Below, one piece after another: positions 1-22,052 of a stretch of 64,000 bases of DNA; the first letter of the stretch is position 1; each line of letters begins with the position of its first letter. A program made the position numbers and the translations under genes. This stretch comes from Sanghuangporus weigelae (Eukaryota; Basidiomycota; Agaricomycetes; Hymenochaetales; Hymenochaetaceae). The notes under the pieces are model-generated. The model was not told where the DNA came from. It saw only the letters and a list, made by a program, of their open reading frames with translations, and made no database searches. Location: the NCBI GenBank assembly GCA_033182465.1, contig CP137318.1, positions 1 through 64,000 on the forward strand, in the 5' to 3' direction.

Positions 1-172
1 ACCCTAAGCCTAACCCTAAGCCTAACCCTAAGCCTAACCCTAAGCCTAACCCTAAAGCCTAACCCTAAGCCTAACCCTAAGCCTAACCCTAAGCCTAACC
101 CTAAGCCTAACCCTAAAGCCTAACCCTAAGCCTAACCCTAAGCCTAACCCTAAGCCTAACCCTAACCCAACC
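1..172. repeat. Telomeric tract (alternating TTAGGG / TTAGGC)
   Basis: The first ~170 bases are a near-perfect array of the 12-mer CCCTAAGCCTAA, with a few slipped units carrying an extra A. The C-rich strand reads 5' to 3' inward, the orientation expected at a left chromosome end. The complementary strand is TTAGGG alternating with TTAGGC. The tract ends at a sharp junction with the open frame of a zinc-finger gene. It could be true telomere or proximal variant repeat. Confidence 0.85.
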
Positions 173-1287
173 TGACATGATTTGCATATAGCCCACCTGA
201 GCTCTGAATGAACATGAATGTCCATAGCTCTAAGGATAGGAGTACTCCAAAAACATCCATCATGCTGGATAACCTGTAAATTAAAAAGAAAAGCTCCAGT
301 CTGTTCTTGATCCTGGTCCAGAGAGCCATTAGAGTCACTAGAATCACCAGAGCCATCAGAGTCATTAGAGCCAAGATCCTTCTCCTCCTCCTCTTTCTCC
401 TTCTCCTTCTCCTCCTCCTCTTCTTCATCCTGAGAGTGCTTCTCTTCTTCATCTTGGGAGTGCCCCTCTTCTTCATCCTGAGTATTCTCCTCTTCTATAT
501 CCTGAGTGTCTTTTTGTATTTGTTCCTCATCATCAGATATGTTGATTTTCTCCACTTCAGTTGGTTGATTGAGCTTGGCAAATAAGTTGGTATTTTTAAC
601 CAAAGCATTGATATCTACATCAGGAGTCTGATGTGAGGCTGATGTGATTGATGGTAGTAGTGTTTGTTGATTAGAGGGTGATAGGATGGATGGAGATTGT
701 AGAAGAGCAGATGAAGTATGTGTGAAGAGAGATTGAAACTGGACTGAGGACACAACATTAAGAGGATGATGAGCATCTAAAGTATAAGTCAGAAAAAAAA
801 ATGCAAATAGCCTAAAAGCATTAAAAAGATCATGCTTACCTGGAACTGATATCATATCTGCTCCTCTTATCTTTGTCATCCTTCCATCATGAGCCATCTT
901 CCAGTGCTCCAAAAACACATCTTTATTTGTATGAGAAAAGTTGCATGTCTCTTGAGGACAGGTGAAGCTCCCAAGCTGTCCAGCAGATCTATAGATGATC
1001 TGAGATGTGTCATCTAAAATGAAGTGAGATAAATATTCTTATATATGTAGTTCAAAAGAAAGATTTACATACTTGAGAAGATCAGATGTATGTTAGAGCC
1101 ATGGTATTTTCTTTTATGTTCATGAAGAGACTTATAGGTTGCAAAAGCCTGTAAAGACTTGCTGCAGTTTTGAATGGGGCAGATGAATCTAGAGGAGAGG
1201 TAAAAGAATAGATATGATTATTTTCTCTGTCTAAAAAAACAGAAAAAAAGAAAAAACCACTCACTTTGTATTTGATTGAGCTGACAT
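52..1287 (-). pseudogene. C2H2 zinc-finger protein gene running into the telomere (3'-truncated)
   Basis: Not recognised as a named gene. I read exons 1287-1265, 1188-1073, 1013-840 and 776 downward, joined by GT-AG introns with matching phases. The N-terminus carries two C2H2-type fingers: one begins CPIQNC with His near HEHKRKYH, the second is CPQETC followed by LEHWKMAH. Then come a Ser/Gln-rich stretch and a very acidic Glu-rich linker with repeated SQDEEE. The last gene-like segment ends WAICKSCQ, which looks like the start of another Cys-rich motif, after which the frame is simply translated telomere repeat (Gly-Leu, then Arg-Val-Arg-Leu) to a stop at 52. I infer a subtelomeric gene whose 3' end was lost and capped by telomere sequence. 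Transcription would run toward the chromosome end. Confidence 0.6.
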
Positions 1288-1410
1288 TCTTGCTAATGCT
1301 ATGTAAAAAAACAGTTAGTAGATATATTTGTGTATATGTATATCAGCAGTGTGAGAGAATGAGAAGCAGAGCAGAAGAGAGAGTGAGAAAAGAGGAAGGG
1401 CAAAGGGAAG

Positions 1411-1506
1411 AGCAGAGGGTAAGGTAGAGGGCAGGGCAGAGGGTAAGGTAGAGGGCAGGGCAGAGGGTAAGGTAGAGGGCAGGGCAGAGGGTAGGGCAGA
1501 GGGCAA
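1411..1506. repeat. Purine-rich ~25-bp minisatellite
   Basis: About four units of a ~25-bp purine-rich sequence (core AGAGGGTAAGGTAGAGGGC, then AGGGC). The strong purine/pyrimidine strand asymmetry lets both strands stay open, so translated ORFs here are repeat artefacts. It lies between the zinc-finger gene and the G-rich minisatellite. Confidence 0.85.
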
Positions 1507-1574
1507 ACAAGTCAGAGAGTTATGTGACAGTAAAAAGTGATGTTATGTCACATAAGAGAGACATAGTCATGTGG

Positions 1575-2062
1575 GAGGGGCATAGCCCTGGGGGATGCAC
1601 AGCCCTGGGGATGCACAGCCCTGGGGGGTGCACAGCCCTGGGGGGGGCACAGCCCTGGGGGGGGCACAGCCCTGGGGGGGCACAGCCCTGGGGGATGCAC
1701 AGCCCTGGGGGGGCACAGCCCTGGGGGATGCACAGCCCTGGGGGGGGCACAGCCCTGGGGGATGCACAGCCCTGGGGGGGGCACAGCCCTGGGGGATGCA
1801 CAGCCCTGGGGGATGCACAGCTCTGGGGGGGGCACAGCCCTGGGGGATGCACAGCCCTGGGGGGGGCACAGCCCTGGGGGATGCACAGCCCTGGGGGGGG
1901 CACAGCCCTGGGGGATGCACAGCCCTGGGGGATGCACAGCCCTGGGGGATGCACAGCCCTGGGGATGCACAGCCCTGGGGGATGCACAGCCCTGGGGGGG
2001 CACAGCCCTGGGGATGCACAGCCCTGGGGATGCACAGCCCTGGGGATGCACAGCCCTGGGGG
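1575..2062. repeat. G-rich 15-17 bp minisatellite (GATGCACAGCCCTGGGG)
   Basis: Roughly 30 units of CACAGCCCTGGGG followed by either GAT-G or extra Gs. Units alternate between about 15 and 17 bp, so all three frames of both strands stay open for 300-600 bp. Runs of 4-8 Gs recur every unit, making stable G-quadruplexes likely on the plus strand. A short second array of the same unit sits at 7,960-8,030 with the same downstream flank. Confidence 0.9.
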
Positions 2063-2206
2063 GTGTTGCCTAAAAAGGGTGGAGATAACCTAAGCACATT
2101 ACCCAAAGAGGGAGGGGGGCTGTTTAGGGTGGGCTGGGGGGCCCTTCCTAAAGAGGCAGGAGCCCCAGGATGTTGACCAAGATCCCAGGAGGAATATATA
2201 TAGGCT
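2060..2206. repeat. Duplicated subtelomeric flank block, copy 1
   Basis: The sequence directly after the minisatellite (starting GGTGTTGCCTAAAAAGGG and ending near GAATATATATAGG) is repeated almost exactly at 8,027-8,171. It contains inverted CTTCCTAAAGAGG / CCCAAAGAGG-like blocks and no convincing coding frame. Together with the adjacent G-rich array it behaves as one duplicated unit. Confidence 0.85.
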
Positions 2207-2244
2207 TTTCTCATTACTTTTGCAAACAGTTGTAATTTTTAATA

Positions 2245-2690
2245 TAAACAGAATGGTACTACTCTCATAATATTCCAAGTTAAACTCGTATTGTCACTAT
2301 GGCAACATGTATAACACATGTTGTAACTTGGTTTCTGAATAATATTGCTACTGGGTGTCCAATTCATTCATGTAAGCATTCTATTCCACACTGATTTTCA
2401 ATGCAAAGAAAATGGTACCACTCTCATAATATTCTGAGCTGAAATTGTATTGTTATTGCAGTAACATCTTTCACACATATTATATCTCAGTTTCTACATT
2501 ATATCGCTATCAGGTGATTGATTCATGCATGTAAGCATTCTATTCTGCATCAAATTTGGATCCAAAGAGAATGATATCACTATCATAATATTTAGATCTG
2601 ACCTCATATTGTTATTACAGTAACATACTTTACACATATTGTATCTTGGTTTCTGCATAGTATCCTTACGGAGTGTCTGATTTATGCATT
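2245..2690. repeat. Three diverged ~160-bp tandem units
   Basis: Three AT-rich units begin near 2,251, 2,408 and 2,568 with variants of GAATGGTACTACTCTCATAATATT. Each continues through a motif like TTGTTATTGCAGTAACAT and ends with GTAAGCATTCTATTC-like sequence. The same family reappears in reverse orientation at 10,360-10,610. No coding potential seen. It could be a subtelomeric satellite or the internal repeat of a decayed transposon. Confidence 0.75.
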
Positions 2691-5600
2691 GCAGTACAAC
2701 ACTTACTGAGGCTGCACCTCTTCTATTGCATGGATAAGAAAATCTACTGTCAGTCCTTCTACATCTATAGCTATCGTAAAGAAGAAGAAATAGATCAACT
2801 AATATATGTAGTTGCTCATGTGAGCAGTCTATAGTCGCATGGTTACGATGCTCTTCATGTAGTGGTCAAGTGCAGCATCGGAATGTATCGAACTATTGCT
2901 TCAAGCAGCTCAAGGCCCCACGTATCATTGATTTTGATGGGATTAGTTTCTGCTACATAACAGCTAGAATGTTTGTGAATTGTCCCGTGGTTGCTAATTC
3001 TGTGGCATCTGTACGCAAGAAAGCTTTTAGGAGCCGAACGAGACCAGGAATACTACTTTTCTGTGCCCAGCTTGATGGTTGAAGAAGGAATGGTAAAAGG
3101 GACCAGTACTTGGCAGGAATTCCTCCGCTATGTAATTCCTGCATTTGCGAGATAATCTGGACCACATAAGGAGTGAATTCAATCTGAGCAGTCAGTGTGC
3201 GATCAGGAAAATCACAGGGGTGGTGATGACTGACAGTCGATGTCCTGTTATAAGATAATCGTGAACAGTCCTAAAAGATTTTTCTCAAAGGTCAAAGGCG
3301 ACGCCAGAGATGTTGCAACGGTAAACCTACACACAGGTCTAGTACGTACGTAATCTCCATGTCCACATACCTTATTAGAGCAGATACGGTTTCATATTGG
3401 TAAAATTTTGGATTGCTCGGACTCTTTGCGATTGCTCCAAGAACGCCAATCAAACGTTGCAGAATATTTTGGTAGGTGGGGATGAGTGTCGTAGGGGCAG
3501 TAAGTATGACACGCATGACACCTACACAGAGTAATTCAGATGGAGCCGGAGGACAAAAGCCGCACACGCACACTTAATCAAGTAGTCATTTTCCGCAATC
3601 TTCTCCAGCGACCCACCTGACTCGACTCTAGAAGGTACAGCTTTTGAAACTTTGTGAATGTCTTCTTGATTAAATCTAGAAAGTCATTGAGTCGAGATGC
3701 AGTGGTGGCGAGCAAAGTATCTTACAGCAACTGGGAGTCGTGCTTGATGACGAGGATCTGTTCGATAGTTGTTGCGGCGTACATATACATGACACAATCG
3801 GAAGAACCGAGTCAGCACATGAGTGGAAGGACGGAAGCGAGCTGTTCCTTTGTCAGCTGCAAGAATTCCGTCAATGAGACTCTTCAAAGGTCAAGAGGTG
3901 CTTAATAAACCTGCCTGATTTCGAAAACAGTATAAGAAGCAAATCGAGTCGACTTGAACGATCGGATGCACGGTGTCGGACTCGGCTTATAGGTCCTCAA
4001 ACACGTTTCGTGAAAAGAAGTCTATAACATGAACCAGAGCATTTGTGCTCGTCACTCCTTGCTGCGAGATGATTAAAGAATAAGGGCAGCAAGTCGACAG
4101 AATAAAGCATCTTACCTGACCGGTAGCTCCAAGCGTTGCGACAGCAGTGAGAAGACATACACTCTGATCTTTCCGCTTCCGACCATCTTCACCTCGCAGA
4201 TCGCACGCGTACTCCTGTAAGCCTAATTTGATCCATCGGAGAACAATTTCTGTCGTAACTGCAGCATATCCGCTTGTAACAAGGGCACGCAGAACATCTG
4301 CAGCGGCTTGGCGCCGTGCCGTTCCTTCTGCAGTCGGACCGTCAGCAATTGCAGCCGAACTCGCGCTAGCAAATGTGAGATCGAGACGCACATATTCGAG
4401 AGCGTCGTCTTCAAACTGCTCTACTTCGTGAGTCCCCAGCGACACATTCACACGACAACGCCTGCAACAACGCCATCGATAGTCTCTCAGCTCTTGAAAG
4501 TTCCTCGGTAATTCCCAGAGCGGAAGGCTGTACTAAGAAAACGGAGTGACTGGCTTACGAGGCCATCATAGGCGACCCCGGACCGCCGACCGCCACTCAG
4601 AAGACGCCAGAGAGCACGAACGAAAGCTTCAACTGAATTTGAGCTAATAAGCAGCTCCGGATACCGATGAGCATACGCTTCAGTGAGCTCAAAAATACCA
4701 GTCTTTATTTGAGAAGAAACACCGGCCGTCGGTTCATCCGGATCAGTTTGCAGCTCTGCGCGGGGGGGGGTCCCATAGAAGAAACCAGATGAACATCCCG
4801 TTTTCTGCGCCGAAGAACTCGCTATGAGCATCCTCAAGCACTGGCGGGACACGGGGAGGTTTTGGCATGCAAGGTCATAGAAAATATTGAGGACAGCCAT
4901 TGCTTGCGCAACAGTCTTCGCGGTTTTGTTTGGAGGAAATGGGCTGTCGAGGAGCATCCCTGCAGTGTAACGGAGAACTTGTAGGAACGCGAACTGGGCC
5001 GGGACAAAGTTGACGACTGTGCATAACTCGTCAGTGTGCATCTCAGACCGCCATCGTCCAAATATAGAGTGCGCAGTTTCAAGAATTGAGAGATTGATTG
5101 CATATGACGCAATTGGAAGAACCGAGATGGCGCAGAAGGAGTGGAAGAACGGAAACCTGCCTGATTTCGAAAACAGTATAAGAAGCGAATCGAGTCGATT
5201 TGAAGGATCGGATGTACCACGTCGGATTCGGCTTATAGGTTCTTGAACACGTTTCGTGAAAAGAAGTCTACGACATGAACCAGAGCATTTATGCTCGTCA
5301 CAACTTGCTGCGAGATGATTAAAGAATGAGGGCAACAGGTCGATAGAATGAAGCATCTTACCTGAGCGTCGCGACAGCAGCGAGAAGATATATACACTCT
5401 GGTCTTTCCGCTTCCAGCTATCTTCACCTCGCAGATCGCACGCGTACTCCTGTAGGCCTATACCGATTCATCGGAGAACAATTTCTGTCGTAACATATCG
5501 GCTTGCAACAAGGGCACGTAGAACATCTGCAGCGGTTTGGCGCCGTGTCGTTCCTCCTGCAGTCGGACCGTCAGCAACTGCAGCCGAACTCGCACTAGCA

Positions 5601-6950
5601 AATGAGAGATCGAGACGCACATATTCAAGAGCGTTGTCTTCAAACTGCTCTACTTCATGAGCCCCCAGCGACACATTCCGCACGACAACGCCTTCAACAA
5701 GACCATCGACAGTCTCTCGGCACTCGAAAATCTCTCGATCGTTCCCGGAGCTAATAGCCGTACTAAGAAAACGGAGTGACTGGCTTACGAGGCCATATAG
5801 GCGAACGCGGGAGGTTCTGGCACACAAGGTCATCGAAAATACTGAGGAGGACGACCATTGCTCGTGCAACAGTCTCCGCGTCTTTGTTGGGAGGCGATGG
5901 GCTGTCGAGGAGCATCCCTGCAGTGCAACGGAGAATCCGCTTGCAACAAGGGCACGCAGAACATCTGCAGCGGTTTGGCGTCGTGTCGTTCCTTCTGCAG
6001 TCGGACCGTCAGCAATCGCAGCCGAACTCGCACTAGCAAATGTGAGATCAAGACGAGACGCACATATTCGAGAGCGTCGTCTTCAAACTGCTCTACTTCA
6101 ACGCCATCGATTGTCTCTCGGCACTCGAAAATCTCTCGATCGTTCCCGGAGCTAATAGCCGTACTAAGAAAACGGAGTGACTGGCTTACGAGGCCATCAT
6201 AGGCGACCCACCGCCGACCGCCACTCAGAAGAAGAAACACCAGCCGTCGGTTCATCCGGATCAGTTTGCAGCTCAGGGGGGGTCCCACAGAAGAAACCGG
6301 ATGAACATCCCGTTTTCTGCACCTTCGGTATGAGCGTCCTCAAGTACTGGAGGGATGTCCTGACACACGAGGTCATAGAAAATATTCAGGAGGATGACCA
6401 TTACTCGTGCAACAGTCTCCGCGTCTTTGTTGGGAGGCGATGGGCTGTCGAGGAGCATCCCTGCAGTGCAACGGAGAATCCGCTTGCAACAAGGGCACGC
6501 AGAACATCTGCAGCGGCTTGGCGCCGTATCGTTCCTTCTGCAGTCGGACCGTCAGCAATCGCAGCCGAACTCGCGCTAGCAAATGTGAGATCGAGACGCA
6601 CATATTCAAGAGCGTTGTCTTCAAACTGCTCTACTTCATGAGCCCCCAGCGACACATTCCGCACGACACCGCCTTCAACAAGGCCTCGATAGTCTCCCGG
6701 CTCTCGAAAATTCCTCGATAATTCCCAGAGCAGATAGCCGTACTAAGAAAACGGAGTGATTGGCTTACGAGGCCATCGTAGGCGAACCCGGATCGCCGAC
6801 CGCCACTCAGAAGACCCCAGAGAGCACGAATGAAAGCTTCAACTGAATTTGAGCTAATAAGCAGCTCCAGATACCGATGAGCACACGCTTCAGCGAGCTC
6901 AACAATACCGGTCTTTATTTGAGAAGAAACACCAGCCGTTAGGTGATTCA
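2690..6950 (-). pseudogene. Exportin-2 (CSE1/CAS) pseudogene, copy 1, internally rearranged
   Basis: Broken frames on the minus strand match the exportin-2 karyopherin, which returns importin-alpha from nucleus to cytoplasm, in the expected order from high to low coordinates. The pieces are an N-terminal HEAT region (FYDLACQNLP at ~4,860; RWRSEMHTDELC at ~5,030), the conserved LEYVRLDL segment and LGLQEYACDL (4,200-4,410), a DFFSRNVFEDL segment (~3,990), and C-terminal IPGLVRLLKAFL (~3,020). The coding sequence shifts frame repeatedly, has in-frame stops and lacks a continuous splice path. The segment from 5,430 to 6,950 repeats parts of the central module several times. Its C-terminal edge (2,690-2,870) aligns with 11,574-11,750 of the second locus. 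Family assignment is from remembered motifs; no alignment was run. Confidence 0.8.
4230..6780 (-). repeat. Partial tandem amplification inside the CSE1 pseudogene
   Basis: Blocks recur about four times: a CAAGGGCACGCAGAACATC-like block (near 4,280; 5,505; 5,945; 6,490), a CAAACTGCTCTACTTC block (near 4,410; 5,640; 6,085; 6,620) and a GTACTAAGAAAACGGAGTGA block (near 4,530; 5,760; 6,160; 6,740). Copies are 90% or more alike by eye but truncated at different points, so this is a set of overlapping partial duplications and not a clean tandem array. Confidence 0.8.
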
Positions 6951-7753
6951 TCCTTTCCTCTTTGATCGTCGTAGAATTCTTTCAGAGACAGCAGAGCTTT
7001 TGCAGGCGTAAAGATTCAGACAACAAAGTGGTGGCAAGGTCGAGGACTCACAATTCATAAACCGCTGGGCCTCCAAAGCTCGATCGAACGTAGGTAACGT
7101 CGTATATGAGATGGAGTGAAAGGATATGAAAACGTGTACATTGTTCGTGACACTCGATAGCTATTGGTCCGCTGTCTTGCTGAATCGTGAAATCGTTGCG
7201 TACAGCTCGAGAGCGATCCCGGACAAATGCCTGAGTCTCCGCGAAGCCACCTCTTGGAATGAGGTCATGGAAGAGGTAGTCGAGAGTTCCGATAGTCTAA
7301 CGCCCGCAAGCAAAATAGCAAAGTCATAAGTGCAGCTTAAAGTCAATATCATTCAGGAGTTAGCATGGACGCACGCATTCCCATTTATCAAGGTTGTTCT
7401 CCCTTTCTCGCCGGTAGCGTTCGAATTCGGGACGCATCTCTTGACAGGTTCCGACCATAGTGATAGCTTCCTCGAGTCGTTTCGGTTCGTCCATCTTGCC
7501 TTCACGTATGGCTCGAGCACGTTCTTCTTCCCGCGCTGTGACAAGCTAAAGTTAACGAAAGTAGAATTCAGCAAGCACGACAATCAAAGAAGAAACGTGT
7601 AGCACGCACCTCTTCCCATGTTTTTCCAGTACCGTTCGACGTAGGAGGAGCAGGCGTCGACAAACGCGAAGGACCTGCCTCGGAAGCTGAAGCAGCACCG
7701 TCATCTTCGTCTTCCGTTGCATTTGTCGGGGTTCCGCCTCGGTCGCCCCGCAT
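6935..7753 (-). pseudogene. SAC3/GANP-family mRNA-export factor, N-terminal fragment
   Basis: SAC3-family proteins are scaffolds of the TREX-2 complex for nuclear mRNA export. Minus-strand exons give an acidic Ser/Pro segment (from 7,753), then the signature VGTCQEMRPEFERYRRER and NNLDKWE (about 7,550-7,378), then TLDYLFHDLIPRGGFAETQ, RNDFTIQ and AIECHE (7,296 to about 7,135), FDRALEAQRFMN (about 7,065) and LLSLKEFYDDQRG (about 6,995-6,940). The usual Cys of the DMCP motif is Arg here. About 35 residues normally between the KWE and TLDYL segments are missing, and one frame change occurs near 7,090. It stops abruptly where CSE1 debris begins. A decayed fragment fused to CSE1 pieces is the best reading. 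Confidence 0.75.
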
Positions 7754-7959
7754 AACCGTCGTCCGGATCTTTCGGGGTGCAGGTGCGACGCCGTGCTTCG
7801 CCGGTGCGTAGACGCATCCTGCACGTCACGATGAGAACGTGGACCAGCGTTTATGACTACGATTTCTACTTGCAGGCTCACACGCGCAGACAAGCAGGGC
7901 TCTATATGTGATCGTGGGAACATCTTCAAAAACTCGGATGCGTACGCATCCACAGCCCG

Positions 7960-8171
7960 GGGCAGCCTGGGGGGGGCACAGCCTTGGGGGGGGGGATGCA
8001 CAGCCCTGGGGGGGGCACAGCCCTGGGGGGTGTTGCCTAAAAAGGGTGGAGATAACCTAAGCACATTACCCAAAGAGGGAGGGGGGCTGTTTAGGGTGGG
8101 CTGGGGGGCCCTTCCTAAAGAGGCAGGAGCCCCAGGATGTTGACCAAGATCCCAAGAGGAATATATATAGG
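7960..8171. repeat. Duplicated subtelomeric block, copy 2 (G-rich array plus flank)
   Basis: A short run of CACAGCCCTGGGG-type units (7,960-8,030) followed by a nearly identical copy of the 2,060-2,206 flank, ending in GAATATATATAGG. The left junction cuts into unrelated sequence after the SAC3 fragment. No gene. Confidence 0.85.
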
Positions 8172-8286
8172 TCAGGCATGCTTACTAAGCGTCACGTATC
8201 ACGGACTGTGTTTTCGGTGCAAGTCCGAGGTGCAGTCTCGTCACTCGAAGATCACGTGCATCGCCTATTTGATCCTCCGCAGCAGT

Positions 8287-9899
8287 TCGGTGTAACATCG
8301 AGTCAACCTCTTTTGGATCCGAGTCCACGAATAGAACGACTTTCGAGTCAGTGCACCGCAGTCGGTGTAACATCGAGATGTGATACTCGGACAGGGTAAC
8401 TTCGTGTTATCTGTATAACTGATTTGGAAATGATTGGTATGATAATCATCGGAATATTTGTCACTTGTTAAAAGGGCCTTCCATGTCCGTCCTTCTCGGT
8501 GCTGCACCGAGCTTCTAAATGCTGCGATCAATGGAAATTCATTTCCAACTCACCTCAAGCTATGTTTCTCGGCGTCTCTCTCCTCACGGTGTTGCACCGA
8601 GTTTCACTCCGGGACCCTTGTTCCATACAGCTACTTTGATCCTTCACCAGCTTCACTGTTTCAATTATTCACGCTTCTTCCTCTGTCAGTTGTTTTGGAG
8701 CTTTAAAAGCCATCCACATGGCCCTCTTTGTTTCCCCCAAAACTCTTTGAGCAATGCCTCGTCCTGTCGGCATCGATGAAACAACCGTCACCTTGTGCGT
8801 CCCTTTTCTCTTACTCTTGGCTTGGCAATGACCCACGGTGATGACCCAAAATACTATTAAGAACAAGTTAGGGAGCCCTGTGTTGGCTCCCTATGTCTTG
8901 ATGTTTTCCGTCTGAGCGATGAGCCTTCTTTTTTGTTGCTCTTCTGATGTTTTGTTTCTCTAGATTTTTTACAATTTTTTCTGTCGTCTTGCGCGTGAAG
9001 CTCGTCCTTTTGCGCCACCGCGTCTCCGTCAAGTTCGAGATCGATCCGAGTGCGGCTCTGCAGACGGTCCTGCCGTACTTCGGCGGTCCGCTCGCTGATT
9101 CTCAGGTCTAAGTAAGTCTGTTCAGTTCAAGCTCTATATACAGTCATTAACCGGTCCTTTAAACACCAAGAAAGTGTATACATGAACTGATATCCAAGTT
9201 TTTAAGTAAATCGGGAAAGTTGTTGGGTCAGGAAAAATTATACACTGGTCAATTTTGTTGAAACTAGCAAACATCAGTCTGATCAAATTGGTCCTGTGCA
9301 TTTTTCCGTGAACCAATATGTATTCTAAGTTTGCGAGCAAATATCTATCTATTAAAAGTGTCTCATCATATGTTTTCAAGGAGGAATATGCTCTCGGGAA
9401 ATTAATGCAAGCCAAACAAGCCAAAAATGTGACAGATGCACAGCAGTTTAATTACATAATGTGATCAATGTTGGTATGCCAAGTCGGCAAATTAGCCGAT
9501 ATTAGGCAGTTTGTAATGTCACACAGTGTTCAAAGGAGCCATTTATGTGACAGACACTTGAGAAATAGAGCAGCACATCAAACTTATCATACCTCGGTCT
9601 TATTCCGAGAGACATCTGCTGCAGTATTGGGTGTCACATGATCTGCCCGTTCTTTGGCCTGCTCTCGGTGTTACACCGAATTTACATGCATGAGTCTTGC
9701 GGCTTGCTTTGTCTCTGCCCTCTCTTCATCAGTGTTGCACTGATATTCATCTACTTATGCTTGTTTCGTAGAAAATATTTAGCACAACTGTTGCTTGTAT
9801 CTCTACGCTCTCGGTGTTACACCGATCCTTTGGTTAAGTGGACAGGCAGGTCAGGTGACTTGTGTTTTTATTGCCCTCCCCTTGTCGGTGTTACACCGA
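8287..9899. repeat. Eight dispersed 15-bp palindromes (TCGGTGTTACACCGA)
   Basis: Near-perfect inverted repeats centred on one base occur at 8,287, 8,362, 8,496, 8,586, 9,665, 9,729, 9,811 and 9,885. Within the two clusters the start-to-start spacing is 64-134 bp. Variants keep compensating symmetry: one copy is TCAGTGTTGCACTGA, with both arms changed together. The sequence between copies is not repeated. No gene seen across 8,180-8,980. Confidence 0.8.
8982..9111 (+). pseudogene. Stray coding-like 3' fragment
   Basis: A GC-rich open stretch within AT-rich surroundings gives a gene-like tail containing VKFEIDPSAALQTVLPYFGG and ending ADSQV before a TAA. There is no start codon or convincing upstream exon. 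It is probably the last exon of a gene otherwise lost. Family not recognised. Confidence 0.3.
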
Positions 9900-10120
9900 G
9901 ATTCATCCACCTGTGTGCTTCATAAATGACGATTCATGTTTTCTTTTCATATTTTCTTTCATATCTTTGTTTTTTCTTTTCTTCGTTCTACCGAGGGTAG
10001 GGTATGCACACTCCATGTTCAGCATATTTTGTATTCAGTGGAGTCATGTGGCTCCCTGTTAATTCAAACTCAATATATTTTAACATCACGTGACTCTGCC
10101 TTTTTTTTGATACACTTGAG
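9112..10120. other. AT-rich noncoding stretch
   Basis: Apart from the four palindromes at 9,665-9,899 I see no supported gene. Open frames here are short, use AT-rich codons and lack family motifs. Confidence 0.5.
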
Positions 10121-10127
10121 TAGATCT

Positions 10128-10310
10128 ATGGCCTGGCCTGGCCTGACTGCTGCTGGCCTGCATTCATGTCCTAGCCAGCCTGGCTGCTGGCCTGACCACT
10201 GCTGGCCTGCATTCATGTCCTAGCCACACACATGTCCTGTCCCAGCCGGCCTGGCTGCTGGCCTGGCCTGTGCATCAGGGCTGCTGGCCTGGCCTGTGCA
10301 TGAGGAGGCG
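10128..10310. repeat. CTGGCCTG-rich tandem repeat
   Basis: Many copies of GGCCTG and GCTGGCCTG. They include a duplicated ~48-bp unit (GGCCTGCATTCATGTCCTAG at about 10,154 and 10,204) and a duplicated GGCCTGGCCTGTGCAT unit (about 10,260 and 10,287). It separates the palindrome region from inverted copies of the 160-bp satellite. Confidence 0.8.
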
Positions 10311-10359
10311 ACCTGGCCTAGCATGAAGCCTAGAACCCCTCCTTCTAACCCAAAGGCTA

Positions 10360-10610
10360 TTCTGTTGCAGTACTGTGCAGATACCAAGTTACAAAATGTG
10401 CAATACATGTTACTGATATAACGGCATGAGTTCATCTCCAAATACTATGAGAGTAGTACCATTCTCTTCAGATCAAAAATTAGTGTGGAATAGGATATCT
10501 ACATGTGTGAATCAGCCACTCAGTTGTGGTGCTGTGCAGATACTGGGATTCAAAATATATGATATGTGTTACTGCGATAACCCCATGATCCTAGTCAGAG
10601 CCTCGAGATC
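10360..10610. repeat. 160-bp satellite units in inverted orientation
   Basis: The reverse complement of this stretch matches the 2,245-2,690 units, for example AGAGTAGTACCATTCTCTTC here against its complement near 2,410. About one and a half units are present. The two arrays therefore face each other across 8 kb of mosaic sequence. Confidence 0.7.
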
Positions 10611-10999
10611 TGGACCTACCTTGCCCTAGACTTTCTTAATAACCTGTGGCTGTCATTGTTTTGCTTTCACTCAAAAAGTCTCTGTAGGAGACACATTTCA
10701 TTCTTTGTTACTTGGTACTAAACAATTCTTTCAGTGTTTACTATGTACAAATGAACATGCTATCGACATTGCAGGAGGACACGGGGGAACGGGGAATGCA
10801 GAGCAAAACAAATAAACATACGAGCTGCGGTAACCTAACAAACGAAACATGTAAGTACGAGTACGACTCTGTGGTTGGGAGCGGCCGCAACCAAGTGTCC
10901 GTCCTCAGAGGAGGTTAGTTCCTGTCGTGAGATGAATTAATTGAGGACCGGCCCCATAAGTTAATTCAGTACAGCCTGAAGATCATTTTTCTTTTCGCG

Positions 11000-13430
11000 A
11001 GGGCAGTTCCGACATCCGCACTCAGAGCGCTGTCGCTGCCCGATCAGATCATAATGGAGTTGTGCCGCCTGGACAAACGAACTAATGCGTGGCTCTCTGT
11101 TCACGGCCGACACGAGCAATTCTCCTACAAATTCCCTGAGTCCGCTAACTTCACTAACCGGGTCTTCGGGGAGACCCTCGCTTGCAGCAAGTCCTGAGCA
11201 AGCTGTTTGGTATCCTGCACCTTACTCCTCCAAGTCAATCGTTCCCAGAACCTCATCGGGGTTTTCCGCCGCAGTGGCCTATGCACTTTGTAGATGCTTG
11301 GATTCACTGAAGAGCTTTGCGAGTTCAGCGAATGCAGCCGGCCTGGCAATTCTTATTAACAGAGTTGAAGCTATTAGTGAAAAGGCTCACCGATGCGTAA
11401 GAGCTGGTTCAGAGAGCGTAATGGCACTGCTTATTAGCATTTTCGTCATGCCAATGATGACGACTTTTTTGTCTTTGGGAAGAATTCTGTGCACTTGCGG
11501 CACGATAACGTTCCCCAGCAATTGCGACCATAATCTGAAGTGGTCAGGTCAGAAAGAAACGAGGCAGCTATTACCGTACAACACTTGCTGAGGCTGCGCC
11601 CTTCTATTGCACGGATAAGGAAGTCCGGCGTTAGCCCTTCCACATTTATAGCCATCGTAAACAAGGAGAAATATATCAGCTGATATACGTAGTTGTCCGT
11701 GCGAGCAGTTTGTAGCCTAGTCAGAAGCATGGTTACGATGCTCTTCATGTACTGGTCAAGTGCCGCTGGCGGAATGTATCGAATTATCGCTTGAAGCAGC
11801 TCAAAGGCCCAAGTATCATTGATTCTCGACGGGATTAGTTTCTGCTGCACAACGGCTAGAATGCTTGTGAATTGTCCCGTGCTTGCTAATTCTGCGGCAT
11901 CGCAAGAAAGCTTTTAGGAGGCGAACGAGATCAGGAATACTTCCTTTCTGCGCCTAGCTTGACGGTTGAAGAAGGAATGGTAATAGGAACCGGTAATCGG
12001 CAGGAATTTCTCCGCGATGTAGTTCCAGCATCTGTGATATAATTTGGAACTCGTAACACGAGCAGTCAGTATGTGGTCAGGAAAAAAGCAGGGGTGTTGA
12101 TGACTAATGGGCGATGTCCTGTTTGTAAGATGATCGTGAACGGTCCGAAAAGATTTTTCTCAAAGGTCGAAAGCGACTCCGGAGATGTTGCGACGATAAA
12201 CCTACACACAGGTCTAGTACGATTTTGCGGAATCTCTGTACCCACGTACCTCATTAGAGCAGATATGCTTTCAAATATATATTGGTAAAAAATTGGATTG
12301 CTCGGATTCTTCGCGATTGTTCCAAGGTCAAACGTTGCAGAAGATTTTGATAGACGGGGACGGGCGTCGTACAGGCAGTGAGTATGACCAGCATGACACC
12401 TACACGGAGTAATTCAGATAGAGCCGGAGGACAAAAGCCGCACACACACATTTCATCAAGTAGTCATTTTCCGCAATCTTCTCCGGCGACCCGCCTGACA
12501 CGACTCTAGAAGGTACAGCATTTAAACTTCGCGAATGTCTTCTTGATTAAACCTAGAAAGTCGTTGAGTCGAGATGCGGCGGTGGCGAACAAAGCTTCTT
12601 ACAGCAACTGGGAGTTGCGCTTGATGACGAGGATCCGTTCGATAATTGTTGCGGCGTACGTATACGTGACATAATTGTAAGAACCGAGGGAGTGGAGGGA
12701 CGGAAACAAGCCGTTTCTTTGTGAGCTGCAATGGTGCCATCAATGAAATTCTTCAAAGGCCAAGAGGTGTATAACAAATCTGCCTGGTTTCCGAAAGAGT
12801 ACAGGAAGCGAATCGAATCGACTTGAAGTATCGGATGCACGCGCCGGAATCGGCTTGTAAGTCCTGGAACATCGCGAAAAGAAATCTACGACGTCAATCA
12901 AAGTATTTGTGCTCGTCACTCCTTGCTGCGAGGTGATTAAGACTGAGGGAGGCAGGTCGACAGAATAGAGCATCTTACTACCTGAGCGGTAGCTCCGAGC
13001 GTCGCGACAGCAGTGAGAAGATATACACTCCGGTCTTTCCGTTTCCAGTTATCTTCATCCCATCCCATGGATCGGACGCGTACTCCTGTAAGCTTAATCC
13101 GATCCATCTGAGAACAATTTCTGTCGTAACTGCCGCATCTCCGCTTGCAACAAGGGCACGCAGATTATATGCAACGGCTTGGCGCCGTGTCGTTCCTTCT
13201 GCAGTCAAACTGCCAGCAATATTAATGGCAGCCGAATTTGCTCTAGCAAATGAGAGATCGAGAGGGTCGTCTTGAAACTGCTCTACTTCATGAGTCATTA
13301 AGGACACACTGGGTACGACAACGCCTTCAACAAGATTATCGATGGTCTCTCGCCTCTCGAAAATTCCTCGATAATTCTCAGAGCGAATAGGCGTGCTAAG
13401 AAAACAGAGTGACACCATCGATTGGTTCTT
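11000..13430 (-). pseudogene. Exportin-2 (CSE1/CAS) pseudogene, copy 2
   Basis: A more collinear but still broken copy of the nuclear transport receptor. From high to low coordinates it has FLSTPIRSENYRGIFERRE, a diverged LEYVRLDL segment and IGLSLQEYASD (13,400-13,070), a DVVDFFSR piece (~12,890), and the C-terminal region with WAFELLQAIIRYIPPAALDQ and MLLTRLQTARTDN (11,850-11,690). Further on are VPQVHRILPKDKK (~11,480) and a tail to about 11,030. The N-terminal third is absent, cut at ~13,430 just upstream of intact gene space. Frameshifts between 11,900 and 13,000 break the frame, so I do not think it encodes protein. Only the C-terminal exons could still be read locally. Confidence 0.75.
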
Positions 13431-13931
13431 TCATGTTGTCCATACCATACGCATGATGCGTAACACGCATTGATGCAAGAAACTACATGGATACTCGTGA
13501 ACAGTATGGCAGTGCATCATTGACGAGGTAGAGCGCATCAGATGCCAGGAGAACTATGCCGGATTGAAGGGGCGTGCATGGGAACGCTGGGTGATGAGGA
13601 TCAAAGAAGAATGTCGGAGAAGGACAAGCAGCGGGAACACGTGTGCGTGAACACGAAGATGGCGTGTGGATGAATGATTGAGGCGGGCGTCGGCGGTGGC
13701 GGCGACGTCCGCGTACAGTACAGTACTAGTGGGTACAGACAGTGGCGGGCCGCGAGTGAGAAGTTATTTACTTATATGGACAATTGTCGGGAGATGCGTC
13801 GGGCATTGGCCTCGGCATCATTAGCACCGACCGACAACGTGACTTGCGCTACTTAAGCCATCGCTCCCGCCGTTCCTCCACAGGGCCACAGCCCATCTCC
13901 CCCCTTCTCCCACCCAGTACTGGAACCACCT

Positions 13932-16900
13932 ATGTCCGCCCCTCTCCCACCTATGCCTCCCATTTCCGTCGTAAGATCTCCGGCATCCCCTCCTCACCCG
14001 GCAGCCCTCAAAGACGCAACTGCGGCATCGCAATCAACAGCACCTGTGAAAGAATCCTACAGTGCTCTTGGTCCGGGTGGATTGAAGAACAATGACAATG
14101 ATCATCCCATGCAGTCAGCGACGCCCCCTCCACCTAAACTGCCAGAGCTTGTGGTCTCTCCGAATAACTCATCAACATCATCTCCAACGACGACACCTGG
14201 CCGAGCACCAGCTCAGCTTGCTCTTATGCTCTCCAATGCTCTTGCCGACGTCGATGCGCTCAAGAGAGCTCTCGCTGATGAGAAGAGACGTACTTCCCGC
14301 GCAGAGCGACTCCTTCAGACCTTTCATCCCAATGATCTCCCTATGAATGAGCAAACCTCTGAAGGCGCTATGAAGGCAATTCTTGATGCTGAAGCTCGCG
14401 CTGATCGAGCAGAAAGGTACGATATAATCGATATTATCGTATAGATATTTTCGTTAAGATGATCCGATTTCCTTTAGAGAGCGCGATGACGCCTTACATG
14501 CGCTTCATTCGCTATCAAATCATTTCGCTGAGCTTGAGAGATACGAGTCGTCCTTATCGCTCCGCGCTGCAGATGCACGAAGCGCTTTTACACGTCTCCT
14601 TGCCGGCATTGCTGCTTCCCATCCGCCTCCGGCTTCTTCTCTGACCCTTTCGGGCTCGCCACCAGCTCTGAGCCTTCCGACACTTCCGCCTCCTTTAGCG
14701 ACCCCTTCACTAAACACTGTCCCATCTCAACATCTCAATACAACTGTACCTCCGCCACCTTCATTGTCGAGCCGTCATACTCGCAGTCTACCACAGGCAG
14801 CGCCTACCTTTCCGTCGTCATCGTACTCGCATGGAACAAGTCGTGCCCGGCAATCGTCTCTTACTCACGATTCAACTTTCAGCTGCCTTCCTCTCCCTCC
14901 CCCTCCTTCGGCATCCGGACTCGGAGCTGGATTGCTTGGAGCCTTACCAGTTCCTCCGTCATCGTCGTCATCCTCATTTTCGGTTCCAGCAAAACGCTCT
15001 CACAAACGCAGCACTCGAGGGCTGGATGACGGTTTTGCAGACGCAGGAGTGTGGGAGGATTCAAAGCGTCGGAGAATGGGAAACTGGGATATAGATGTTG
15101 ACGAACCTCACGCAAGCCACCTCGAGCAGCCGTTACCTTATCCTCCTCATCAACCATCACTGTCTGCTCAGCCTACGCAGCGCGTATTCGAGCATGATCG
15201 TGACCACTTGCAAAATCAGCAATCTTATACGAGAAGCAGTGCGCCGTATCCACCTCGTTATGAGGAGCAACGCGAGGTGAACGGAAACGGTCCTGCGAGT
15301 GCAAACGGGATGGTCCGTCTTGATGCTCGGGAACTCGTACGGGATGCAAAGGAACGCGAACGGCGTGAGAAGGGTTATCATCCTCGTCATAAAGATGGTG
15401 AGACGAACAGAAAGAGTAGACGGAGCGCTAGCCGTAGTTCATGGGGAAGTAGCCGTAGCATCGATGAAATGCTGCTCGAGACAGCAACGGATGGAGAACG
15501 CGGAAGGAGGGAGGGTGGTAAGTAATTTGTTTATCATCCAGGACGTGCATGGTCAACATTGATTTTTAGGTCCACCATCGCCTCGCGGGCAACAGAATCT
15601 TGGCAATTTCCCGACGCAGACTCATTTACAGGATGCGGGCACCGCAGTTCCACCTCTTTCTGCAACCCGAGAACACAAATCTGAAAAGATCGGTTTCCAT
15701 TCAAGTCAACCACCCAATGATTCTACGTTTGGCGTTAACGGACTTGTTGAGAAAGAAAAACCCGTTAAAGTGCCTGCGACCCAGCTCATGACACTCGGGC
15801 CCGGTGGCGTCGTCGTTAGTGGAGGTATATCTTCTGTTTATCTTATTCTCCATCGAAGACTATCTTCTGATGATATGCACGATTTTCAGGTGGACAAGCC
15901 GCATCTGCTATACCTGGCGGTGGATTCCCTCCGTACAATGAGGCCGGTCAGCGGATTTGTCGCCAGTGCGGCGTACCTGGGCGCTATAAGGATGGCAAGT
16001 GTGTGGAAAAGTGGGGACCTGGACCTGAAGGGCCGGGGACAGTTTGTGATAAGTGGGCAGCCAGCTACATGACGCACGCTACCTTCAAAACTGATGTATT
16101 GTCGATTTTAGATGCCGAAAGAAAATGAAGCGCGTAGAGCGTCGCGGAACGTTGGACGGTTCCGTGGCTGCAGCGCAACATCAGGCTTTCCTCGCCCAAC
16201 GACAACCTCAGCCTCAACTCTCTTCGCAGGGAACTGCCATAACCATGGCTCCGTCGCATTCATTATCTCACAACCAGAGTCGTACATCATTACGTTCAGA
16301 TACCCTTGTTTTAGATCCCAGTGGGCATGAGATTTCTTCAAGTTCTCAGAGTAAAAATGGACGAAAGTCGTCCTGGATAGCTGGTGAAGACCGTGCAGAG
16401 GTCAATGGAAAGCCGCGCGATTGGAGAGAGAAAGATGAAAGGAGTCGAGGCGGATCCAGGCGCTCTCATTCTCCTGCGCTATCGTATCATTCGTCTAGCT
16501 TGCGTCAAAGTCAGGGGCGAGATCACAGGCGAGTTCCGACGCCTCCGTACATTACATCCATATCCACACGCGAGCAAGACGATGAAACCGCTGAAGAGGA
16601 AGAAGAGTGCGAAAGAGATGGGAATGGTGAATTGGATGTGGACGCGGAACTCGCACATGCTGCGGACGTGGCGGACTCGAGGAAAAGTATGTCACGGACT
16701 TCTGCACACTACTCTTCGTCTTCGTCTTTATCTTTATCCTCGGATGGTACGCGTGCAGGAGCTCCGAATGGAAACAGCCGGCCATCTCGGAGTGCTAGTA
16801 GGGGATCATCGTCGTCTGCGGCAACAGCAGATGAGAATAGCGGGTCAAATAAAGGTCCAACTAATGCTGCAAATGGCGCATCGGGCTTGAGGCGCATACC

Positions 16901-17048
16901 GCTAACGAGTGACATGGCATCGCCGCACATCCGTCGACGAGATACGCAAGATGAACTCTATGAGGACGACGATGATGCAGATACTGACGCGGACCCTGAG
17001 GCAGAGATTATGGATGCTGTCGATGCTACTATGAAGATTGAAGAGTAA
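13932..17048 (+). CDS. GATA-like zinc-finger protein, Ser/Pro-rich
   Basis: Exons 13932-14416, 14478-15517, 15570-15824, 15890-16052 and 16112-17048 join in phase to 959 codons plus stop. Residues ~100-200 form a predicted coiled coil (LALMLSNALADVDALKRALA; AELERYESSLSLRAADAR). A long Ser/Pro-rich low-complexity region follows, then at about residue 620-665 a zinc finger of form CRQC-25 residues-CDKC ending RKKMKRVERRG, spliced across exons 4 and 5. GATA fingers normally have a 17-20 residue loop, so this is a GATA-like variant with an extra Cys inside the loop (GKC). The acidic C-terminus has a DDDDADTDAD-like run. Likely a nuclear DNA-binding regulator; target unknown. First intact gene inward from the subtelomeric debris. 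Confidence 0.85.
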
Positions 17049-17743
17049 CTTCGCTTTCGTACTCTTTGCGTTCTCGTTCACGTCCTCGTTCTCATGTCGT
17101 TTCTTCGTCAATTACGTTGTAGTTTACCGACGCGATCTCACTGTCTTCGTTGTATCAATATTTCCTGTTGGGTCACGGTCGGCTTTAAGTAATATTTTTG
17201 CAAATAGTTTCCATGATTTTCAATTTTTTTCGATTAGTGGAAATATTCATGGCTTTCTGTCTCCTATCACGGGCCGAGCGGGCTTTGCGCCAACTGATCC
17301 AGTCCGGTTTGTGTGGAAATTGCGCTGCGCGAATCTCGGGATCGATTTTAGTGACCTCGAGCCTCGGGCATTTCCGATCACCTTGACACCTACAAACAGG
17401 CTCTTCAGTTCCGCTCGATCAGGCAAGGCACCAGATATTTTCTGTTCGTAAACAGCGGGCCTCGCAATGATGGATCAGGCTATAATAACTGAAGCTCTCT
17501 CGCACTTGACTTGATGACAAGCAAGGACTCTTGCTACTCCTGGTACTTACTACTGACTGACCGCTGCCGGTCAATTTCACACATTCCGACGTGTTATTTT
17601 CGTCGATAGGTCATTAGCTCATTGCACAGCGAAGAACAAATTAAAGGGGGGTGATCTCGAGTTGCGGCGCAGTTCTTATGCCCTAAGAAATACGCCGTCG
17701 CGTCCTTGTCGTCCTCCATCATCGTCATCCCTTTTCATTCACC

Positions 17744-20700
17744 ATGCTTTGTCTCCTACTAGTCACCCAGTTTGTCGTTCTTCTTGCGTATGCCCTGGGC
17801 ACATTCGCTCAGAACGGACGTACCGACTGGTCAGCATCGCCCTTTAATCTACCCGCCTTTCCGCTTGCTGTTCGTTCGCCTTATTCAACTACCTGGTTGC
17901 CTCAAGGAAACAGCCCACAAACGCTTAGTGAGTCTTGGCCGAGGATCTGGAGCATCAATGCAGTAAGCAGTATTCCAATAATTTGTCAACGTTAATTGGA
18001 CAAGAAAACTCAACTGACTGGACTCATCTTGCCGAATGCCTACCATTGTTATTTAGATTATTGGCTGGTACGCTCTAGTCTCGGTTGATGGACAGGCGTA
18101 CAGAATTTCCAGAGCAACAGACGTTGCAAACGTGACAACTGCGAATCAAACTGCAGTCGAATTTATATCAACACGGACATCCTTTCTGTTTGCTACGGGG
18201 TGGAATGCAGATCAACGCATCCTTCTTCAGCCCCGTCGAGTGAAGTCTTCTTGGCTCTCGTACCTGCGATTGTATATTTAGCTTAATTCTCTGTAGCTTA
18301 TGGATCTCGTTCGGCAGTCTCTTCCGTTTTCTTACTTGACAATGTCCGCCGCCAAATCTGTCGACGGAACTGCACATATTTTAAGAATGTACTCCGATAT
18401 ATCGGGAGGTCAGCTTCTAAAGCGCTTCTTTGCCACGGCTAGCTCACCAAATGTTCCTCTTACAGAATTTATTACAGCAGATACACCTCAGCTGGCCCAA
18501 TGGTTTTCTCGGGAAGACGGGCAATACGTAATCCTGTCGATGCGACCTCTGACTCAGAAGCAGTATTCAGAGGATGCTGGGATTGCGCAGGATGCTACGG
18601 AGTATTATGCCTTCAAAAAGGTGAATCCCTTAGACCAGTTTTCTGTACCATCTTCTGATCGTCAGGGTAGATAGATGGAACGACAGTTTCATGGGCAATC
18701 TCAAACGATACAGTTAATCGCGCTACCGCAGTCAATACCAACACTACGCTTGGGAATACAACCCAACTTTCTCCTCGTCCAGTCCAAGAGCAAATCTTTT
18801 TTTTTTTTGCTAATTCCTATCGAAACTTTCTCATTTCTTGACCCACCAGGCTTAGTTCTTTGAATAATTGGACTACTCTCGGAATTTCTGTGGACTGGGG
18901 CAACATTGATTCTACTCCTCAGCCGGCCGTCTGGGCTATAAGCCTTGTGCGCAGCCCCTTGGTACAGTACAAGACTCGGTCTGGTTTAGAAGATCGGTGC
19001 CCCTACTTCTTGTCTAACTATGCCGATGCAGAATCCGCCGTCAGCTATATTCATGTCCTCCTATCGAAATCTTCGCTTACAATACTTCAGATGAAAGCAT
19101 TTCTTGATGACTTCCCTCGGGCTCAATCGGCGGCCGAGACCTTCGACTCGCAGATTCTTAATACAGGTCAACAGTTTTCAGCGGAGTACGCAGATCTACT
19201 TGCCTTGACTGTGCGCCAAGTGATGGGGTGCATGGACATCACTCTATCGAAAAGTAGCGATGGAAGCTGGAATATGAGCGATGTTAAAGTTTTCACTAAA
19301 AACATGGGCGGGATAGGAACGGATGTGCTGGGGTATGTGACAGCTTTCTAATGTGCGGTAGATCCTAGTCTTGCTACAGTGCTGACCAGATATACGCTGA
19401 GCGTAAATATCATCGATACGTTGTACTCAGCCTTTCCAGCATTCCTCTATCTGAATCCCGAACTCGGTGGCTATATGCTCTCACCGCTTCTCGAGTACCA
19501 GAATTCGCCTGCTTATACTCTGAGCTACTCAGAGAGGAATATAGGTTGCTACTTATCTACTGAACTTTGGTCCAATTCCAACCATCGCTGATTTATCCTC
19601 GTTGTAGGAACGACATATCCAAACGCGACGGCGGACGGAATCAACAACTCCCATGATTATGGCGTAGAAGGTAAAGGTATATGCAAGATATTAATGAACA
19701 GGGACTGATTATTCCGCTTTTGAGTCTAGAAACCGCCAATATGCTGATTATGACACTGGCGTATTCGCAGCGGTCAGGAAATGGAGCTTGAAGCATCATG
19801 TGCTCAGTCGTGATTAGTTAATGATTTTAATTTAATTTGATTAGTATCCGTTACTTAAGAATTGGGCGGAATATCTCGAAAACAATACATTGACACTGTC
19901 AAACCAGTGAGTAAAATTGACTGCAATAGGCACTGATTGTATTGTCCAATGAGCTTTCATTTCCTAGGAGATCAGCGGATTTCATCTCAGATGATGTCAG
20001 TCCAAAGAACAACCAGACAAATCTGGAACTGAAAGGCATCATCGGTATTGCCCGTATGGCGAAGATAGCTGAGATAGAAGGAGCTAGTACTAGTGATGAC
20101 CAAAAACGATTCAACGTCAGTCCTATATTCCAGTTTTATCAATACATCAGTCCCGACTCTGACCAAGCTCACAATTAGAATTCGGCCCTATCGTATATCT
20201 CCAAGTGGAAAGATGATGCTCTCTCCTCGGATCAGTCATATATTGAGCTCACCTACGGACAGTCAGATACGCATGGGTTGATCTACAACTTATTTGCAGA
20301 CCCTCTCCTTCAGCTCCGCCTCATTCCGGTGTCTGTCTACGGTATATTGGATTATTGTATGCTAAAATCATAAGTATGTGGAAAAGCACTCCTGAGTATA
20401 CGTATTTTGACCAGTATCGTTAGCCGAAGCACCATATGGAATTCCACTGGAAAACAGTGTACCAAACCGAACCATGACGAGTGGGTAGGATCCCCTGCTA
20501 GTTCGACCAGAACCTGACATGTATCGCAGACTGGATGGTGTTTGCTGCCTCTACGGTATCTGATCCGGCAACGCGAAACTCCATGGTCGACCTTATTCAT
20601 AAGTATGCGGCATCAAACGAAAATAACGCATCTTTTCCTTCTATATACGATCCATCATCTGGTTCCGTGTCAGCAGCTTCCAACTCGGGAATAAACAGGT

Positions 20701-21403: not shown

Positions 21404-22052
21404 TGTAGAAAATGACTTTATGTCTCTCCAGATGTATTTTCTTCTTGCAGTTTGAACTTGTGCAACGTTATGAAAGTGAAAATGCCGATTAGACTACCTA
21501 TGTATCGTGCGAGCCTGTCTCGGTGGCATGTAATACGCATGACCCACATCTGTCAACAACACACGATTCAAAATTGGTTGCAAAAGTGCAGATACTATGA
21601 ATAATAATCCGAGTCTTTCGCAGTTTTTAATGCCTATAGAATCATGGATACGTAGCGTATAATGGCGATTTGTTCTTATTGTTATGATAGGAGGATGCTC
21701 CTTCATCAATCCGTCGCAGCTATTGGTCATTTCGTGTAACTGTTCCATTTGGTTCTGTGGACTCATTGCTTCCTTTCAATATTTAGTCTTAGGATTTCCG
21801 CTTGTTCTGACGGACACCTTAATCTACTGACGAGAACGGCAAGATAGAGTTCGGTATCACTGACTGTTCGGCACACCCAGGCGCATTGATATATGATTCA
21901 ACAGACGAATCCACCGCTGATGGCTCATTTCTTGATCAGGACTGTTGCACTCGAGCCGCGCAAGACACATTTAGTAATTGTCAGAATATCATACAGAGCT
22001 TATGACAATCGACTTTGCATTGTTTCCGACCAGTCATGTACTTGACGAAATT
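21404..22052. other. Convergent intergenic region
   Basis: About 650 bp between the 3' ends of the glutaminase and lipase genes. It is AT-rich; no convincing gene or repeat seen. Confidence 0.5.

Follow-up and report, generated by a model that had tools for sequence, protein, structure and literature searches.

The locus at 8,287 to 9,899 raises the question of why a palindrome of 15 bp should recur eight times in nearly the same form while most of what lies between the copies differs, and what, if anything, keeps it alike. The window, by which we mean the whole stretch of 64,000 nucleotides analyzed, is the left end (C1L) of contig C1 (4,491,666 bases) in a genome of 33,870,148 bases and 13 contigs. 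Tandem Repeats Finder identified repeats of the 12-mer CCCTAAGCCTAA at positions 1 to 172, and the identical 12-mer was present at other contig ends; thus, the window begins at a chromosome end. Here and at those ends the telomeric 12-mer alternates CCCTAA and GCCTAA; a literature search for the 12-base string gave nothing relevant, as judged by title. Among the open frames of the window, Pfam and PDB searches gave matches to Cse1 and Sec23/24.

A preliminary description of this DNA had listed eight palindromes, all of which were recovered on the forward strand. Pattern matching placed TCGGTGTAACATCGA at 8,287 to 8,301 and again at 8,362 to 8,376, TCGGTGCTGCACCGA (17 bp if the flanking C and G are counted) at 8,496 to 8,510, and the imperfect ACGGTGTTGCACCGA, with A opposite A at its end bases, at 8,586 to 8,600. 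The four others were assigned by pattern match and by alignment to an array at the left end of contig C5 (C5L): TCGGTGTTACACCGA in a-type units at 9,665 to 9,679 and 9,811 to 9,825, and, in b-type units, TCAGTGTTGCACTGA at 9,729 to 9,743 and TCGGTGTTACACCGA at 9,885 to 9,899. The 17-bp version of the palindrome reads CTCGGTGTTACACCGAG. Two decayed copies on the same strand retain TCGG-N7-CCGA, namely TCGGTGCAAGTCCGA at 8,214 to 8,228, 73 bp upstream of the copy at 8,287, and TCGGTCTTATTCCGA at 9,594 to 9,608, 71 bp upstream of that at 9,665. As each lies one period upstream, the palindromes of the window form two five-copy runs, of which the first contains a gap of twice the usual length; the spacings are 73, 75, 134, and 90 bp in the first run and 71, 64, 82, and 74 bp in the second.

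Random occurrence was ruled out by shuffled sequences, Markov sequences, and a genome-wide control pattern. With up to three mismatches allowed, the window contained 13 matches, compared with a mean of 2.09 after shuffling (largest value 7; none of 100 shuffles reached 13), and the interval 8,160 to 9,990 contained 10, that is, the eight copies and the decayed ones at 8,214 and 9,594, compared with a mean of 0.08 in Markov sequences (largest value 2, n = 300). The preliminary description had proposed a genome-wide count and a check for clustering at chromosome ends, and both revealed a clear pattern: with at most one mismatch, 26 sites were found versus two for the reversed control pattern, and 24 of them lie at four contig ends (C1L, 5; C5L, 4; the right end of C5, C5R, 11; the left end of contig C10, C10L, 4), the other two being in the interior of C1. 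At up to three mismatches, the corresponding numbers were 1141 and 841. C5R is a contig end without a telomere and may thus lie at some distance from the actual tip of the chromosome; the contig stops there in what by eye resembles a retroelement polymerase gene (2,773,613 to 2,774,212).

Both runs of the window are contained in a subtelomeric block (8,168 to 10,358, forward strand), of which blastn and the genome DNA search revealed a duplicate, 97.4% identical, on the reverse strand of C5R. Among the 83 genome matches listed for this block, 81 fell on 9,171 to 9,557 or on approximately 9,122 to 9,167, and the remaining two were the block's own position and its duplicate on C5R. The frequent matches belong to a dispersed MITE-like repeat, a fragment of which (9,138 to 9,557) lies between the two runs and consists of a body (9,171 to 9,557) and a terminal-repeat-like stretch (approximately 9,137 to 9,167) for which no inverted partner was found nearby (best inverted match, 17 of 32). 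A 42-residue open stretch at 8,983 to 9,108, conserved at 97.6% on C5R, is perhaps a captured exon. On C5L, five palindromes occupy positions 21,552 to 21,842 in units that alternate b-a-b-a-b, and C10L carries a near-identical copy of this array some 90 bases from the telomere. The tandem repeat has thus been carried between chromosome ends inside larger duplicated subtelomeric blocks. At C10 1 to 300 the telomere directly abuts the upstream flank of the array, as if a break had been healed by telomere addition. C5L also contains identical direct repeats of 1,511 bp, about 11 kb apart (5,895 to 7,405 and 16,689 to 18,199), which are perhaps long terminal repeats, and, past the main array, three AT-rich palindromes (TGATAT...ATATCA) at 22,434, 22,533, and 22,605, 72 to 99 bp apart, which may be due to chance. 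Exact paired palindromes 50 to 78 bp apart were found neither in the viral nor in the prokaryote contigs searched.

The arrangement within the runs is that of a tandem repeat. The 17 within-run spacings (unit length 48 to 90 bp, mean approximately 73 bp; a + b pair on C5L approximately 136 bp) had a coefficient of variation of 0.25, compared with 0.46 to 0.57 for spacings drawn from 15 to 150 bp (P = 0.0017 for a uniform and 2e-5 for a truncated exponential distribution); this value leaves out five gaps that lie outside runs (1008, 2560, 382, 181, and 172 bp), with which it rises to 2.15. The preliminary description had considered the intervening sequence unrelated. For the second run this did not hold, as window positions 9,665 to 9,950 were collinear with C5L 21,619 to 21,885 at an alignment score of 163, versus 65.6 (SD 12.7) with shuffled spacers, none of 500 shuffles being as high (largest score 106). 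The second run is therefore a decayed tandem repeat. For the first run it stood: none of 72 comparisons of the spacers at 8,287 to 8,600 with the second run and C5L exceeded z = 3 (best value, 2.8). When flanks cut at the neighboring palindromes were compared in 462 pairs, 16 pairs exceeded z = 4, 14 of them within the second run and C5L or within C5R; the other two joined C5R 2,765,570 to C5L 21,619 (z = 5.0) and to window position 8,287 (z = 4.8). Whole tandem units on C5L were 76.5% identical, and two of the six units at C5R 2,768,693 to 2,768,998 were 80% alike over 61 bp. An ordinary tandem repeat, named in the preliminary description as one of two findings that would refute it, accordingly accounts for the spacers of the second run and not for those of the first. 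Of the four explanations offered there (sites of a dimeric protein, hairpin-forming elements, scars of a tiny mobile palindrome, or units of a decayed satellite), the last is the best supported, by the regular within-run spacing and by the collinearity of the second run with the a/b array of C5L and C10L. We are thus confident that the locus represents a tandem repeat of the subtelomere, now decayed, whose palindromic core is better conserved; the case is weakest for the first run.

Alpha satellite likewise consists of tandem units of alternating type, in which the short CENP-B box is better conserved than the rest. The array studied here shares the alternating units and the short box that outlasts its surroundings. 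It differs in forming short, decayed arrays of 5 to 17 copies near chromosome ends instead of megabase centromeric ones, and its box is a palindrome and a candidate protein site only. In Agaricus bisporus, chromosome ends differ strongly between strains and carry subtelomeric RecQ helicase genes (PMC7473861); the subtelomere passages of that paper concern these genes, not palindromic arrays. Literature searches for basidiomycete subtelomeric palindromes and for fungal palindromic subtelomeric minisatellites gave nothing on point at title level.

The better conservation of the core was evident from the older copies. Between the second run and C5L, 57 of 60 palindrome positions but 137 of 192 spacer positions were identical (Fisher p = 4.3e-5), a comparison of four copies with 49 gap columns set aside, in which optimization of the alignment would, if it had any effect, have overstated the identity of the spacers. 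In the recent pair C1L/C5R, changes affected 4 of 120 palindrome positions and 34 of 2,054 positions elsewhere, the run spacers among the latter showing 8 in 429; as the palindromes changed no less than the rest, no constraint is visible at this time scale. Transitions made up 30 of these 38 changes, 17 of them of the CpG type, and the two CpGs inside the palindrome may explain its recent change. C10L and C5L differed at three of 526 aligned positions, none of them in palindromes, which is too few to judge.

Whether symmetry as such has been kept was evaluated in a set of 22 copies that omits those of C10L, the C5R copies of the window's eight, and both decayed ones. The preliminary description had stated that the arms co-vary. 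Over the six outer pairs, one two-sided change that keeps pairing was counted versus 0.135 expected (P = 0.135), and over seven pairs three were counted versus 2.17 expected (P = 0.37), so that co-variation beyond chance was not observed. The example cited for it, at 9,729, is the only one of the copies in which both sides of any of the six outer pairs have changed. Positions 7 and 9 varied independently (TA 10, TG 7, CA 3, CG 2; Fisher p = 1.0), whereas positions 2, 4, 5, 6, 11, and 15 were invariant in 22 of 22 copies, a figure inflated by the fact that copies were found by their likeness to the pattern. Sequence, more than symmetry alone, seems to be kept, and this favors a pair of like subunits that recognize double-stranded DNA over a stem formed in RNA.

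The likeliest reason for the conservation of the core is, we infer, that TCGG-N7-CCGA is a candidate site for a homodimer. Each unit would be bound by a homodimeric DNA-binding protein reading two facing TCGGTG(Y) half-sites, for which the core would have been kept; arrayed as they are, such sites would serve to bring the protein to subtelomeric chromatin. The independent variation of positions 7 (Y) and 9 (R) is as expected of two independent half-sites. The three array regions contain TCGG-N7-CCGA at 6, 11, and 4 places, whereas 122,756 bp of adjacent sequence contain none, an enrichment that is largely built in, since the palindrome itself served to select these regions and 5 of the 11 places on C5R copy those of the window. 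Other spacings from 0 to 20 occurred at most once per array region, and 7 alone stood out. The independent part of the signal comes from the two decayed copies, in which TCGG-N7-CCGA was kept while inner bases changed. Also in favor, the first run shares its palindrome with the second run and C5L despite unrelated spacers.

Convergent CGG triplets at a fixed spacing are a hallmark of fungal zinc-cluster proteins, which the present site resembles in geometry. The genome gave at least 28 matches to the zinc-cluster domain (PF00172), versus none in 14 control genomes, and the presence of these genes was counted in favor of a binding site. The TCGG-N6-CCGA sites of the Zn2Cys6 proteins Ppr1 and UaY likewise pair inverted CGG triplets, a constant number of bases apart, in a TCGG...CCGA frame; here, in contrast, the spacing is 7, the inner TG/CA is conserved equally with the triplets, and the sites form a subtelomeric array instead of lying in a promoter. 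A literature search for a CGG-N7-CCG or TCGG-N7-CCGA site found none. Against a binding site count the palindromes of the recent copies, which are no better conserved than their surroundings, the presence of the array at only four ends, and the general abundance of zinc-cluster genes in fungi. The statement as a whole, an old subtelomeric tandem repeat whose core persists as a candidate site of a homodimeric protein, is therefore put forward as plausible but tentative.

Its main rival is a palindrome without function that is prone to amplification: by forming hairpins or cruciforms it would cause slippage, inversion, and amplification, and subtelomeric duplication would then spread the arrays. 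Evidence for this comes from a second, unrelated palindrome family. In 264,000 bases comprising the window and other ends, palindromes with perfectly matching 7-base arms around a single center base numbered 37 versus 16.1 expected, and the TCCCCGA arms that emerged from this count at the left end of contig C6 (C6L) extend to TGTCCCCGANTCGGGGACA. With up to three mismatches, the genome contained 50 such sites versus 3 for the control. Arrays account for 39 of them: C6L 9,934 to 10,967 (12 sites), C6R 2,705,182 to 2,705,775 (7), C7L 10,640 to 10,904 (4), C10 43,907 to 44,255 (5, 44 kb in), and the right end of C11, 1,798,077 to 1,799,325 (11); the other 11 are scattered and have three mismatches each. 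Four of the five places lie less than 11 kb from a contig end. A gene of the SKN1/KRE6 type, which together with the zinc-cluster genes marks the genome as that of a fungus, adjoins the C6L array, near and within which a third palindrome type, TGTCCGGATNNTCCGGACA, was observed at 9,488, 9,756, 9,818, and 10,740.

Like the present family, the TGTCCCCGANTCGGGGACA arrays consist of tandem units that carry a palindrome and lie mostly near contig ends. They differ in their unrelated sequence, in units that are still clearly alike (mostly 79 to 86 bp), and in spacers half of which are hairpins: 14 of 28 had a better z below −2, the mean being −2.49 compared with −0.46 in 40 control segments. Parts of these arrays can therefore be read as alternating inverted half-units, and on C6L the middle part of the array is inverted, which counts in favor of this rival. 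Two-sided arm changes exceeded expectation to some extent (8 versus 3.6, P = 0.01, 39 copies; 6 versus 3.9, P = 0.15, for the 26 distinct copies). Clusters of at least three like palindromes occurred in five of nine chromosome-end stretches (window 1 to 14,000, C5L, C5R, C10L, and C6L) and in none of the C1R, C2L, C3L, and C4L stretches; a single weak cluster appeared in a 50-kb control from the interior, and no cluster arose in the Markov sequences, of which 10 were generated for each stretch. Palindrome arrays, then, recur at chromosome ends in this genome.

The lack of visible constraint in the recent copies of the present family also suits a palindrome without function. What it leaves unexplained is why the same sequence, beyond symmetry, outlasted the spacers. 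Moreover, arm co-variation in the present family did not exceed chance, and its spacers showed no unusual folding on average (mean better z, −0.87, n = 15, with single values of −4.8, −2.5, and −2.4). The hairpin-forming element of the preliminary description hence found support neither in co-variation nor, on average, in spacer folding. We consider a functionless palindrome the most serious alternative, though on balance an unlikely one.

A further reading takes the palindromes as the subterminal repeats to which the transposase of a DNA transposon would bind, with C1L as a remnant and C5R as a fuller element with its gene. On C5R they indeed flank an orphan multi-exon gene-like region (C5 2,766,309 to 2,769,549, reverse strand), six at 2,768,693 to 2,768,998 and the rest at 2,763,786 to 2,766,133. 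A DDE_3 transposase fragment (C5 2,762,881 to 2,763,246, reverse strand; E = 2.4e-12) lies just past the shared block, and by the same token outside what C1L has in common with C5R. The six palindromes stand between the first two coding pieces, with an in-frame stop after the first, and by our own reading C5R has a 56-base intron, as fits a fungus. Five gene-like pieces, including two upstream, gave no significant Pfam match (best E value, 0.14) and no relative in the parts examined of C1L, C5L, C10L, and other ends (threshold, E 0.01); one piece was compared with the PDB without a match, and the two largest, the ones searched genome-wide, are single copy. Neither a terminal inverted repeat nor a target-site duplication could be shown. 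A transposon origin is, on this evidence, improbable.

Transcription of the array into RNA hairpins with a 6-bp stem and a triloop is more doubtful still. Six variants fold as hairpins (−5.0 to −9.1 kcal/mol), and in array orientation T.G (7 copies) exceeds C.A (3) at positions 7/9, as does G.T (four times at 3/13 and 4/12) over a single C.A at 2/14. However, positions 7/9 would sit in the loop, compensatory two-sided changes in the stem were not in excess, and Rfam and tRNA searches of the whole window gave no match; we regard this reading as very unlikely. The repeated insertion of a tiny mobile palindrome, as once suggested, has next to nothing to recommend it, since, although the first run shares the core with the second despite having unrelated spacers, the within-run spacing is regular, copies occupy homologous positions in the two collinear arrays, and no more than two of the 26 sites are found elsewhere than at contig ends, as many as for the control.

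Nothing in these findings requires a new kind of system. That other ends carry a second palindrome family suggests that the present array is not a one-off, and one might speculate, although we think it improbable, that several unrelated palindrome families, each in its own array of 50- to 90-bp units, are landing pads of homodimers that organize subtelomeres or tell them apart. Elsewhere, short boxes that outlast the surrounding satellite have pointed to DNA-binding proteins that set up chromatin. A symmetric 15-bp site with TCGG-N7-CCGA geometry at the chromosome ends of a fungus offers a probe with which the possibility of a subtelomere-binding protein can be tested directly.
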